Positions 289 to 27,870 of a stretch of DNA of 37,885 nt are shown piece after piece (position 1 is the first letter of the stretch; every line of letters starts with the position of its first letter). Source of the stretch: Sulfuritalea sp. (GTDB lineage: Bacteria; Pseudomonadota; Gammaproteobacteria; Burkholderiales; Rhodocyclaceae); the NCBI GenBank assembly GCA_020048435.1, contig JAIFMO010000223.1, positions 1 through 37,885 of the forward strand. The letters are read 5' to 3'. The notes below the pieces were generated by a model that worked only from the letters and a program-made list of their open reading frames with translations, was not told the origin of the DNA and made no database searches. Position numbers and translations under genes: made by a program.

Positions 289-316
289 TGCCGTACCGCT
301 AGCGCCGACTTTTTGC
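289..316 (-). repeat. Dispersed 26-bp repeat, copy 1 (reverse orientation)
   Basis: tgccgtaccgctagcgccgactttttgc; reverse complement gcaaaaagtcggcgctagcggtacggca matches six other copies. Confidence 0.95.
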
Positions 317-374
317 AGCGATCGATACCCGGCCACGCTCTCGGGCTCCCCGCCGATTAAATTCCGCGACCACC

Positions 375-1697
375 TCAAATAAATCGCGTCAGGTAAAGGC
401 TGATCGCGGGCACAAATAGCAGCAGCAGGATGCGCAAGGCGTCGGAGAGCAGGAAAGGCATGATGCCGCGATAGGTTTCCGCCATCGGCACGTCCTTGGC
501 CAGGCTGTGGATCACGTAGACGTTGAGCCCCACCGGCGGCGCGATCAGACCGACCTCGACCACCATCAGCGTCAGGATACCGAACCAGACGGCCTTGTCG
601 GTTGCGCCGAGGCCGAACAGGTCGAGCCCCATGACCACGGGAAATAGCACGGGGATGGTCAGCACGATCATGGACAACTCGTCCATCACCGCGCCCAGCA
701 GTACATAGAACAGCAGGATCGCCGCCACCACCCACAGGGCTGGCACGTTGAGCCCGGCCACCATCTGCGCCAGTTGCGCCGGAGCTTGCGACAGCGCCAG
801 CGTGGCGTTGAGCATGTCGGCGCCGAGGAAGATCATGAAGATCATCGCGGTGGTTTCGGCGGTGGCGAGGAAAGCGCGCTGGATCGCCGCGCCATCGAGT
901 TCGCGCCGGGCCAGCGCGACGGCGAAGGTAGCGACCGCGCCCACCGCCGCACCCTCGGTCGGGGTGAACAACCCGCCGTAAATGCCGCCAAAAACCAGCA
1001 GGAAAATTGCCAGCACCGGCCAGACAGCGAGCAGTTGCCGCCCGCGCTGACCGAATGATTGCGCCGGCTGCGCCGGGGCGTGCTCGGGATGCCGACGAGC
1101 GTAGATGGCGATCACCACCAGATAGCCGGCGGCGGCGATGAGGCCCGGGACGAAAGCGGCGGCGAACAGCCGCGCGATATTCTGTTCGGTGAGGATGGCA
1201 TAGACCACCAGCACCACCGAAGGCGGAATGAGGATGCCCAGAGTGCCGCCAGCGGCCAGCGTGGCGGTGGCGAGTCGGCCGGAATAGCCGAAGCGGCGCA
1301 TCTCGGGCAAGGCCACCTGCGCCACCGTCGCCGCCGTCGCCACCGAGGAGCCGCAGATAGCGCCGAAGGCGGCGCAGGCCAGCACAGCGGCCATCGCCAT
1401 ACCGCCGCGCCAGTGTCCAATGAGGGCGTTGGCGGCGCGGAACAGGTCGCGACTCAGCCCGCCCTGGCTGGCAAAATTACCCATCAGCAGGAACAGCGGG
1501 ATGACGGACAGGTCGTAGTTGGAAAAACGCGCGTAGGCCATGCCCTTGAGCATGTTGAACAGCGTGGCGTCGCCCGCCAGCAGGACATAGCCGATAGCGC
1601 CCGGCAGGGCCATGGCGACGGCGATGGGCACGCGCAACGCCATCAGCGTCAGCATGGCGCCGAAGAGGCCGAGGGCCAGACTCATTCCGCCACTCAC
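375..1697 (-). CDS. dctM: TRAP transporter large permease subunit (DctM)
   Basis: 440 aa, multi-TM, GxxxG-rich, followed by DctQ- and DctP-like ORFs. Confidence 0.9.
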   Translation of the reverse strand: MSGGMSLALGLFGAMLTLMALRVPIAVAMALPGAIGYVLLAGDATLFNMLKGMAYARFSNYDLSVIPLFLLMGNFASQGGLSRDLFRAANALIGHWRGGMAMAAVLACAAFGAICGSSVATAATVAQVALPEMRRFGYSGRLATATLAAGGTLGILIPPSVVLVVYAILTEQNIARLFAAAFVPGLIAAAGYLVVIAIYARRHPEHAPAQPAQSFGQRGRQLLAVWPVLAIFLLVFGGIYGGLFTPTEGAAVGAVATFAVALARRELDGAAIQRAFLATAETTAMIFMIFLGADMLNATLALSQAPAQLAQMVAGLNVPALWVVAAILLFYVLLGAVMDELSMIVLTIPVLFPVVMGLDLFGLGATDKAVWFGILTLMVVEVGLIAPPVGLNVYVIHSLAKDVPMAETYRGIMPFLLSDALRILLLLFVPAISLYLTRFI

Positions 1698-1709
1698 TCC
1701 ACTACTCGC

Positions 1710-24630: not shown

Positions 24631-25953
24631 TCAACGCACCAGGCGCAATTCGGCCGCACGGGCATGCGCAATCAGGCCTTCGCCGCGAGCCAGGATCGAG
24701 GCAATGGGCCCCAGCGTCTGCGCGCCGGCTGCGGATACGTCGATCAGGCTGGTGCGCTTCTGGAAGTCGTAAACACCGAGCGGACTGGAGAAGCGGGCGC
24801 TACGCGACGTCGGCAACACATGGTTCGGCCCGGCGCAGTAGTCGCCGAGCGATTCGGAGGTGTAATGGCCCATGAAGATGGCGCCGGCGTGGCGAATCTT
24901 GTCGAGCAGCGCGCGCGGATTCTCGACCGACAATTCAAGATGCTCGGGCGCGATGCGGTTGGCGATGGCGCAGGCTTCGTCAAGGTCGGCAACATGGATC
25001 AGGGCGCCGCGACCGGCAAGCGAGGCGGCGATGGTGTCGCGGCGCGGCATGGTCGGCAGCAGTTTTTCGATGCTGGCGGCGACGCGCTCGATGAAGGCGA
25101 CATCGGGACAGAGCAGGATGGACTGAGCCAGCTCGTCGTGCTCGGCCTGGGCGAAGAGGTCGATGGCGGTCCAGTCCGGGTCGCCCGAGCCGTCGGCGAT
25201 GATCAGCACTTCCGAGGGACCGGCCACCATGTCGATGCCAACGGTGCCGAAGACGCGCCGCTTGGCGCTGGCGACATAGGCGTTGCCGGGGCCGACGATC
25301 TTATCGACCTGCGGGATGGTTTGCGTGCCGTAAGCCAACGCCGCCACGGCCTGGGCGCCGCCGATGGTGAAGACGCGGTCGACACCGGTCAGATGGGCGG
25401 CGGCCAGCACCAGCGCATTTTTTTCGCCGCGCGGCGTCGGCACCACCATGATGAGTTCATTCACGCCCGCCACTTTGGCCGGCAAGGCGTTCATCAGCAC
25501 GGAACTGGGATAGGCGGCCTTGCCGCCGGGCACATAGAGGCCGACGCGGTCGAGCGGCGTGACTTTCTGGCCCAGGCGCGTGCCGCTCATTGGCCCTTCT
25601 GTTTCCGTGTATTCCCACGACTCGATCTTTTGCTTCTCGTGGTAAGCGCGCACGCGGGCGGCGGCGGCTTCGAGCGCGGTGCGCTGTTCGGCGGGGAGAC
25701 CATCGAACGCGGCTTTCAAAACCGCTTGCGGCAGTTCGAGCTCGGGCATCGCCTGCGCGTCGAGTTGGTCAAAACGGCGGGTGTAGTCGAGCACGGCGAC
25801 GTCGCCGAGGCTGCGCACGTTGGCGAGAATTTCGGCGACGGTGCGCTCGATGGCGTCGTCGGTAGAATTATCGAAAGCCAGCAGGGCGTCGAGCATCGAC
25901 AGGAATTGCGGCGCGCGACTGGAGAGGCGACGTATCGTCGCGGCCTGGCTCAT
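24631..25953 (-). CDS. hisD: Histidinol dehydrogenase
   Basis: [67 protein letters not shown]. Confidence 0.97.
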
Positions 25954-26591
25954 TTGATCGCTCCGGCAATGGCGTCGATGACGGGTTGCAACTGGTCGCG
26001 CTTCAGCTTGAGCGCGGCCTGATTGACCACCAGCCGCGAGGAGATCGGCATGATGTCTTCGACCTCAACCAGGTTGTTGGCCTTGAGCGTGCCGCCGGAC
26101 GAGACCAGATCGACGATGGCTTCGGCCAGACCGGCCAGCGGCGCCAGTTCCATCGAGCCGTAGAGCTTGATGAGGTCGACATGGACGCCCTTGGCGGCAA
26201 AATGTTCGCGGGCAGTGTTGATATATTTGGTGGCAATGCGCAGCCGCGCACCGCGTTGCACGGCGGCGGCGTAGTCGAAGCCGACCGGCGCGGCGACACT
26301 CATGCGGCACCTGGCAATCTTCAGATCGAGCGGCTGGTAGAGGCCGGCGCCGCCATGTTCGATCAGCACGTCCTTGCCTGCAATGCCTAGATCGGCCGCG
26401 CCGTATTGCACATAGGTCGGCACGTCGGAAGCGCGCACGATAACGACACGCACATCGTCGCGATTGGTGCCGATGATGAGCTTGCGCGACGATTCGGGGT
26501 TTTCGCTGGGCACGATGCCGGCGGCGGCAAGCAACGGTAGCGTTTCCTCAAAAATGCGGCCCTTGGAGAGGGCGATGGTGATTTGTGACAT
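25950..26591 (-). CDS. hisG: ATP phosphoribosyltransferase (short form)
   Basis: [41 protein letters not shown]; 213 aa. Confidence 0.96.
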
Positions 26592-26595
26592 GACT

Positions 26596-27870
26596 TTATT
26601 TTACCCGGCGGACACTGGCGCCAAGGGCAGCGAGCTTCTGTTCCAGGTTTTCGTAGCCGCGATCAAGGTGGTAGATGCGTTCGATCAAGGTTTCGCCCTG
26701 CGCCACCAGGCCGGCGATGACGAGACTGGCGGAAGCGCGCAGGTCGGTCGCCATAACGGTGGCGCCGTCGAGCTTGGTGACGCCCTTGACGAAGGCAGTG
26801 TTGCCGTCGATCTTGATGTCGGCGCCGAGGCGGATGAGTTCGACGGCGTGCATGAAGCGGTTTTCAAAAATCGTCTCGCGAATCACCGCCGTGCCCTCGG
26901 CCACGGCGTTCAAGGCCATGAACTGGGCCTGCATGTCGGTGGGGAAGGCCGGATAGGGCGACGTGCGGATCGAGACGGCCAGCGGCCGCGCCGGCGCCTT
27001 CAAGGTAATGGCATCGCGCTCCAGCGTGATATCGCAGCCGGTATCCATCAGCTTGTCGATCACGGCGTCGAGATAGCTGGCCGAGGTTTGCGTCAGCCGA
27101 ATCTGGCCGCCCGCCGCGGCAGCCGCGCAAAGAAAGGTGCCGGTTTCGATGCGGTCCGGCATGATGCGGTGGGTGGCGCCGTGCAGGCGCTCGACGCCAC
27201 GGATGCGAATCACGTCGGTGCCGGCCCCGGAAATCTGCGCGCCCATGGCGACGAGGCAATTGGCGAGATCGACCACTTCAGGCTCGCGCGCGGCGTTTTC
27301 GATCACCGTTTCACCGTCGGCGAGGCAGCCCGCCATCATCAGGTTTTCGGTGCCGGTCACGGTCACCATGTCGGTGAACAGTCTCGCGCCCTTCAGCCGA
27401 CCACCGCTGCCCGTGGTGCGGGCGTGGACGTAGCCCTGTTCGACGCTCACCTCGGCGCCCATCGCGGTCAGGCCCTTGATGTGCTGATCGACCGGGCGGG
27501 CGCCGATGGCGCAGCCGCCAGGCAGCGAAACGCGCGCCTCGCCGGCACGCGCGACCAGCGGGCCCAACACCAGCACCGAAGCGCGCATGGTCTTGACCAG
27601 TTCGTAGGGCGCCACGGGATTATCGAGCGCTGAGGCGTCCAGCGTTACCGTACCGCTAGCGCCGACTTTTTCGCGCGTTACCTTGACACCCATTTGCGCC
27701 AGCAACTTGAGCATGGTGCCGATGTCGTTGAGCGACGGCACGTTGGTCAGCGTCAAGGGTTCCCTGGTCAGCAGCGCGGCGCAGAGCAGCGGCAACGCCG
27801 CGTTCTTGGCGCCGGAGATCGCCACCTCGCCGGAGAGCGGCCGGCCACCTTCGATCAGCAATTTATCCAC
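26596..27870 (-). CDS. murA: UDP-N-acetylglucosamine 1-carboxyvinyltransferase
   Basis: [54 protein letters not shown]. Confidence 0.97.
27647..27672 (-). repeat. Dispersed 26-bp repeat, copy 7 (reverse orientation), inside murA
   Basis: accgtaccgctagcgccgactttttc. Confidence 0.95.

Follow-up and report, generated by a model that had tools for sequence, protein, structure and literature searches.

In this study, which was based on a window of 37,885 nucleotides and on comparative genomics of the Rhodocyclaceae, we describe a dispersed DNA motif of 26 bp which, by analogy with known systems, is probably an uptake sequence, spread by biased uptake and recombination within a clade of this family whose members would be naturally transformable. 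The same analogy leads us to favour the view that the putative uptake system is a third one, independent of those of the Pasteurellaceae and the Neisseriaceae. The abundance of the motif, its restriction to a clade, its dialects, its origin in place, the balance between the strands, the reading frames that it occupies, its excess between genes and its copies in phages together match the uptake sequences of the Neisseriaceae (DUS) and of the Pasteurellaceae (USS).

The motif in the window and in the host genome

The window is one whole contig of the host draft genome (G000; 3.05 Mb, 247 contigs, 91.6% complete). Among named loci, those nearest to its TatC region come from Rhodocyclaceae, Sulfurisoma being one of them. 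The motif AAAAAGTCGGCGSTAGCGGTACGGCA was matched seven times in the window with zero to two mismatches each, and 100 dinucleotide-preserving shuffles of the window gave zero matches. All seven copies that were listed in the original prediction are real, and their coordinates had been off by one or two bases at most. The copies, including a degenerate eighth one, are:

289..314, - strand: motif copy 1, identical to the consensus, C variant; not within a predicted gene, upstream of the dctM-like gene end
3196..3221, + strand: motif copy 2, one mismatch; antisense in the dctP-like gene 2219-3337(-)
6329..6354, + strand: eighth copy, degenerate and spelled in the older dialect, TAAAAGTCGGCGCTGGCAAGATGGCG; missed in the original prediction
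12717..12742, + strand: motif copy 3, one mismatch; antisense in the nif3-like gene 12391-13161(-)
15288..15313, + strand: motif copy 4, no mismatch, G variant; antisense in the tatB-like gene 15256-15660(-)
20946..20971, + strand: motif copy 5, two mismatches; sense in the hisC-like gene 19629-21092(+)
22758..22783, + strand: motif copy 6, no mismatch, G variant; flanked by an AAA-domain gene and a ppk2-like gene
27646..27671, - strand: motif copy 7, one mismatch; sense in the murA-like gene 26596-27870(-)

The genes that had been named as carrying the copies (dctP, nif3-like, tatB, hisC and murA) agree with the Pfam assignments, i.e., DctP, NIF3, TatA/B, aminotransferase class I/II (hisC-like) and the EPSP-synthase family (murA), and the peptides proposed for the copies, such as VPL(A/P), were reproduced by translation. 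The hisC copy, which was said to have one A fewer, in fact has a G in place of the A at position 1 with nothing missing, and its differing peptide reflects a different reading frame and nothing more. The CGCTAGCG palindrome and the GCGGTA tandem that were seen in the core hold for the dialect of the host species but not for its relatives, in which this place is mostly CTGG. Position 13 of the motif is either C or G; both spellings coexist in the host, and the G form is mostly found where the gene reads KVGGSGT. Positions 2-10 (AAAAGTCGGCG) are one base apart from the H. influenzae USS AAAGTGCGGT, possibly by chance.

A fuzzy search of the host draft at up to three mismatches revealed 407 copies, 199 forward and 208 reverse, compared with 0 matches for the reversed pattern, so that the motif is strongly enriched beyond the window and the hundreds of copies per genome that had been guessed are indeed present. 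At up to six mismatches, 61 copies were found in 401 kb of host sequence, i.e., one per 6.6 kb, and exact copies (26) outnumbered the copies with a single mismatch (12). An unusually strong consensus has been given as typical of uptake sequences (PMC1626085). In G003, Sulfurisoma sediminicola BSN1, which belongs to the same genus of the Rhodocyclaceae as the host, there was no excess of perfect copies; the motif is degenerate there and its consensus is weaker. The edges of the conserved unit are sharp: the letters are near-fixed between the A-run and the A that occupies position 26, and random outside. About 23 of the 26 positions of the motif are informative, and the information content of the consensus in G003 was 32 bits. 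The motif had no match in Rfam, and an exact 16-mer from it had none in the literature.

Distribution, dialects, inserts and phage copies

The family survey comprised 399 evenly sampled genomes from 68 genera of the Rhodocyclaceae. Hundreds of copies were present in seven of the 68 genera, while the other genera were mostly at chance level. More than 200 copies were found in all four species of g1, 21 of the 22 species of g2, 17 of the 19 species of g20 and all nine species of g104; single genomes of g9, g39 and g46 were also motif-rich. There were exceptions inside the rich genera, i.e., G287 (g20) with 0 copies, G282 (g2) with 32 and G301 with 98, and the first two are candidate natural losses of the motif. 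All dialects have the core AAAAGTCGRCGCTRGCGNNACGGC in common, and they change by genus or lineage when the genomes are grouped by genus rather than placed on a tree: CTAGCGGTACGGCA in G000, CYGGCGRCACGGCG in G003, GTCGACG in G048 and mostly GAAAGTCGG in G022.

At some motif sites of G001, G002 and G003, and rarely of G048 and G106, a 27-bp hairpin segment, ACCCCAAGGGTACTTCCTTCGGGGCGC, follows GTCGGC. Additionally, G003 has a 24-bp segment after AAAAAGT or a hairpin nearer the 3' end of the motif. The inserts enter the motif at three different points (examples in G003, L254-L373, are C3:98037 and C1:236841), their lengths (24 and 27 bp) are all divisible by three, and about 25 of the 34 such hairpins in G003 sit within a motif. 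The host genome has no inserts within the motif. The inserts may have arisen when another small element was inserted at the motif in a targeted manner, or when the motif was replaced by a longer allele.

Among viral contigs, 109 stretches with the motif were found compared with 0 for the reversed pattern, the hosts of these phages being assigned from the motif alone. Several of the multi-copy viral contigs encode a capsid, a primase, a DnaB-like helicase, an Erf annealing protein or a CI-like repressor, and, in addition to the copies by which the contigs had been selected, 55 more were detected in these 762 kb at up to five mismatches, compared with two control matches. L117, L137, L178, L191, L193 and other viral contigs carry several copies each, some of them at positions common to related phages. 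The exact G000 dialect was found in none of the viral contigs, which indicates that the phages carry sister dialects. As a yardstick, 17 USS were counted in each of the H. influenzae phages HP1 and HP2, compared with 0.2-0.45 for permuted words. Pasteurellaceae prophages are reported to accumulate USS (PMC6776037). A depletion of the motif in prophages or islands was rejected, since the largest motif-free gap, 43.6 kb, matches random spacing.

A tentative alternative, which we regard as possible but doubtful, is that the motif does not serve uptake but is recognised by a so far undescribed protein which marks the DNA of the clade or organises it. Under this view, the hundreds of loci would be homogenised in concert, phages would have the motif as well, and small in-frame inserts would use it as a landing place.

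Placement and origin of the copies

The context of the copies was determined using a simple hexamer gene caller. Copies lie in genes, yet they are in excess between them: intergenic copies accounted for 15 of 61 in the host compared with 7.6% of noncoding DNA (about threefold enrichment, p=4e-5) and for 31 of 141 in G003 compared with 9.5% (about twofold, p=8e-6). No strand bias relative to the GC skew was found over 780 kb of constant skew sign (58+/50-), i.e., there was no orientation preference relative to replication, and the spacing along the contigs was random. A polar site of the KOPS or Chi type was rejected because of this random strand placement.

The main rival to uptake, which was also among the candidates offered in the original prediction and which we consider unlikely, is that the motif is bound inside the cell by a protein of DNA organisation, segregation or repair and is kept by selection at each site separately. 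The length of the consensus, its high information content (32 bits in G003) and its confinement to a clade would suit such a protein, the dialects could track its changes, and the copies are evenly spread along the contigs. However, the lack of strand bias is not KOPS- or Chi-like, the occurrence on all of the sampled contigs rather than in one macrodomain is not matS-like, many near-perfect G000 copies lie inside the coding sequence of essential-type genes, and copies on phage contigs are not obviously expected.

Whether the copies arose in place or by insertion was assessed at 34 flank-anchored orthologous sites between G000 and one relative, G003 (70-88% identity, 16% of the host genome); flank anchors were used because gap costs in a gapped alignment may hide clean insertions. 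The two genomes had equal length at 13 of the 34 sites and were at most three bases apart at 17. A length loss of 20-32 bp was seen at one of the 34 sites compared with three of 190 random control positions. Differences of more than three bases were found at half of the anchored sites compared with 11% of the control (p=8e-7), and this commoner length variation is partly due to the insert-bearing forms. Exact G000 copies face a degenerate motif or unrelated sequence of equal length in G003.

The copies in the window could also be followed individually. The orthologous place of copy 2 has the motif in L036 and a degenerate one in L035, while that of copy 3 has the motif in L035, L036 and L037 and several relatives without the motif align there free of gaps. 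For copy 4, the plain motif is present in L037, L039 and L044 and an insert-bearing one in L036 and G003; for copy 5, the motif is present in L035, L038 and L039 and a non-motif sequence of equal length in L037, L040, L041 and L053; for copy 7, G003 has an insert-bearing motif of type B. L038 lies on contig C3 of G003. Because the homologous places in relatives are usually occupied by a degenerate motif or by equally long but unrelated sequence, we conclude that most copies originated where they stand and were not inserted. This aligns well with the gap analysis in which USS were judged not to be insertions (PMC1626085) and with the neisserial DUS, which are likewise reported to be matched by unrelated sequence and gaps in relatives (PMC2397512).

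It is accordingly improbable that the repeat is a tiny mobile element copying itself into genes and gaps like the Rickettsia palindromic elements, REPINs or the cyanobacterial small dispersed repeats, and the palindromic mini-mobile element that was initially offered as a candidate is disfavoured. Sharp ends, the many identical copies in G000 and the longer, insert-bearing forms that sister species have at these sites are what such an element could leave. On the other hand, length differences of its size were not above the control, relatives carry a degenerate motif at the same sites, the 26-mer does not fold, and no Y1-type (RAYT) transposases were found in the motif-rich genomes G001, G002 and G022. 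Two specific forms were rejected, i.e., an insert like the Rickettsia palindromic elements (no clean insertion compared with homologues and no fold) and a RAYT-mobilised REP or REPIN (no fold and no Y1 transposase in these three genomes).

Copies in each of the six reading frames were found in G003. In the G000 dialect, a TAG closes two of the six, and these closed frames hold two of 40 genic copies in the host compared with 21 of 108 in G003 (p=0.04); the two host copies both have the older, TAG-free CTGG spelling. The use of all six frames in G003 and of the stop-free ones in G000, along with the 407 copies genome-wide, bears out the proposal that the DNA and not the peptide is conserved. 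There is hardly any probability left for conserved protein motifs or a compositional accident: although the hisC copy lies within a protein stretch that is alignable among several relatives, this explanation is refuted by the unrelated genes, the six frames, the intergenic copies and the zero count of the reversed pattern.

The uptake-sequence reading and known systems

The uptake-like signal is the best fit among the three candidates offered in the original prediction. Under this reading, a DNA receptor at the cell surface or in the periplasm, which is probably a minor pilin of the type IV system like ComP of Neisseria or the predicted ComN of the Pasteurellaceae, would prefer fragments with the motif; the fragments that are taken up would recombine into the chromosome, and each locus would drift to the spelling preferred by the receptor where the protein or intergenic region allows it. 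We infer all three elements of this scheme, namely that the motif raises uptake, that the copies are homogenised by biased uptake with recombination, and which protein acts as the receptor.

ComEC was found in every motif-rich genome that was checked and PilQ in all of them but the G000 draft, in which, at 91.6% completeness, no PilQ reached the family cut-off, the secretin matches being partial and below it, and ComP_DUS had no match. The congeners of the host, G001-G003, have both PilQ and ComP_DUS. As markers of motif-rich genomes, the ComP_DUS Pfam family and ComEC were both rejected, the former being present in nearly all relatives and the latter also in motif-free ones. Since PilQ and ComEC also occur in motif-poor genomes, they permit the uptake reading but do not prove it. 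Several observations weigh against this reading: the host draft lacks PilQ above the cut-off and ComP_DUS, the density of about one copy per 6-8 kb is several-fold under that of USS and DUS, the G003 motif is degenerate and its perfect copies are not in excess, the length varies by more than three bases at half of the anchored sites, ComEC and the pilin family do not discriminate, the phage hosts were inferred from the motif, and there are inserts within the motif.

To our knowledge, uptake sequences are established only in the Pasteurellaceae and Neisseriaceae, and a full-text search of open-access papers revealed none in the Rhodocyclaceae. If the uptake reading is true, free-living environmental bacteria would provide a third case, unrelated to the other two, and self-preferring uptake would be recurrent and not a habit of host-associated mucosal bacteria. 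It would also provide a new receptor-motif pair to study and allow metagenomic phages to be matched with their hosts by the motif. The spread of dialects, the species with a degenerate motif and the motif-free species form a natural series for studying gain, change and loss.

The motif resembles small dispersed repeats, REPINs and Rickettsia palindromic elements in being short, dispersed and tolerated in open reading frames. Those repeats, however, are inserted and usually foldable, while the Rhodocyclaceae motif arises in place, has no fold and is accompanied by no consistent RAYT. The nearest known kind, along with DUS, is the USS of the Pasteurellaceae (H. influenzae AAGTGCGGT with AT-rich flanking segments, about 31 bp). 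In common with USS, it has hundreds of copies or more on both strands, in genes with extra copies outside them, as well as a strong consensus, family dialects, a non-insertion origin and copies in temperate phages (PMC1626085, PMC7811141, PMC6776037). The density of USS and DUS is about one per kb (PMC1626085). Unlike USS, the motif has another sequence, about 23 of 26 informative positions compared with a 9-bp core, a several-fold sparser distribution and, in the sister species, inserts within it, and its role in uptake is putative.

The Neisseriaceae are beta-class relatives of the Rhodocyclaceae. Their DUS, GCCGTCTGAA and its dialects, differ from the motif in their unrelated sequence, half its length and a higher density, and no inverted-pair terminators were noticed for the Rhodocyclaceae motif. 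The two have in common clade-restricted dialects, a stop codon in one frame that limits position, the occurrence of two spellings within one genome, and copies for which relatives have unrelated sequence or gaps (PMC3630211, PMC2397512). The two position-13 spellings of the host resemble the two DUS dialects within one Simonsiella genome.
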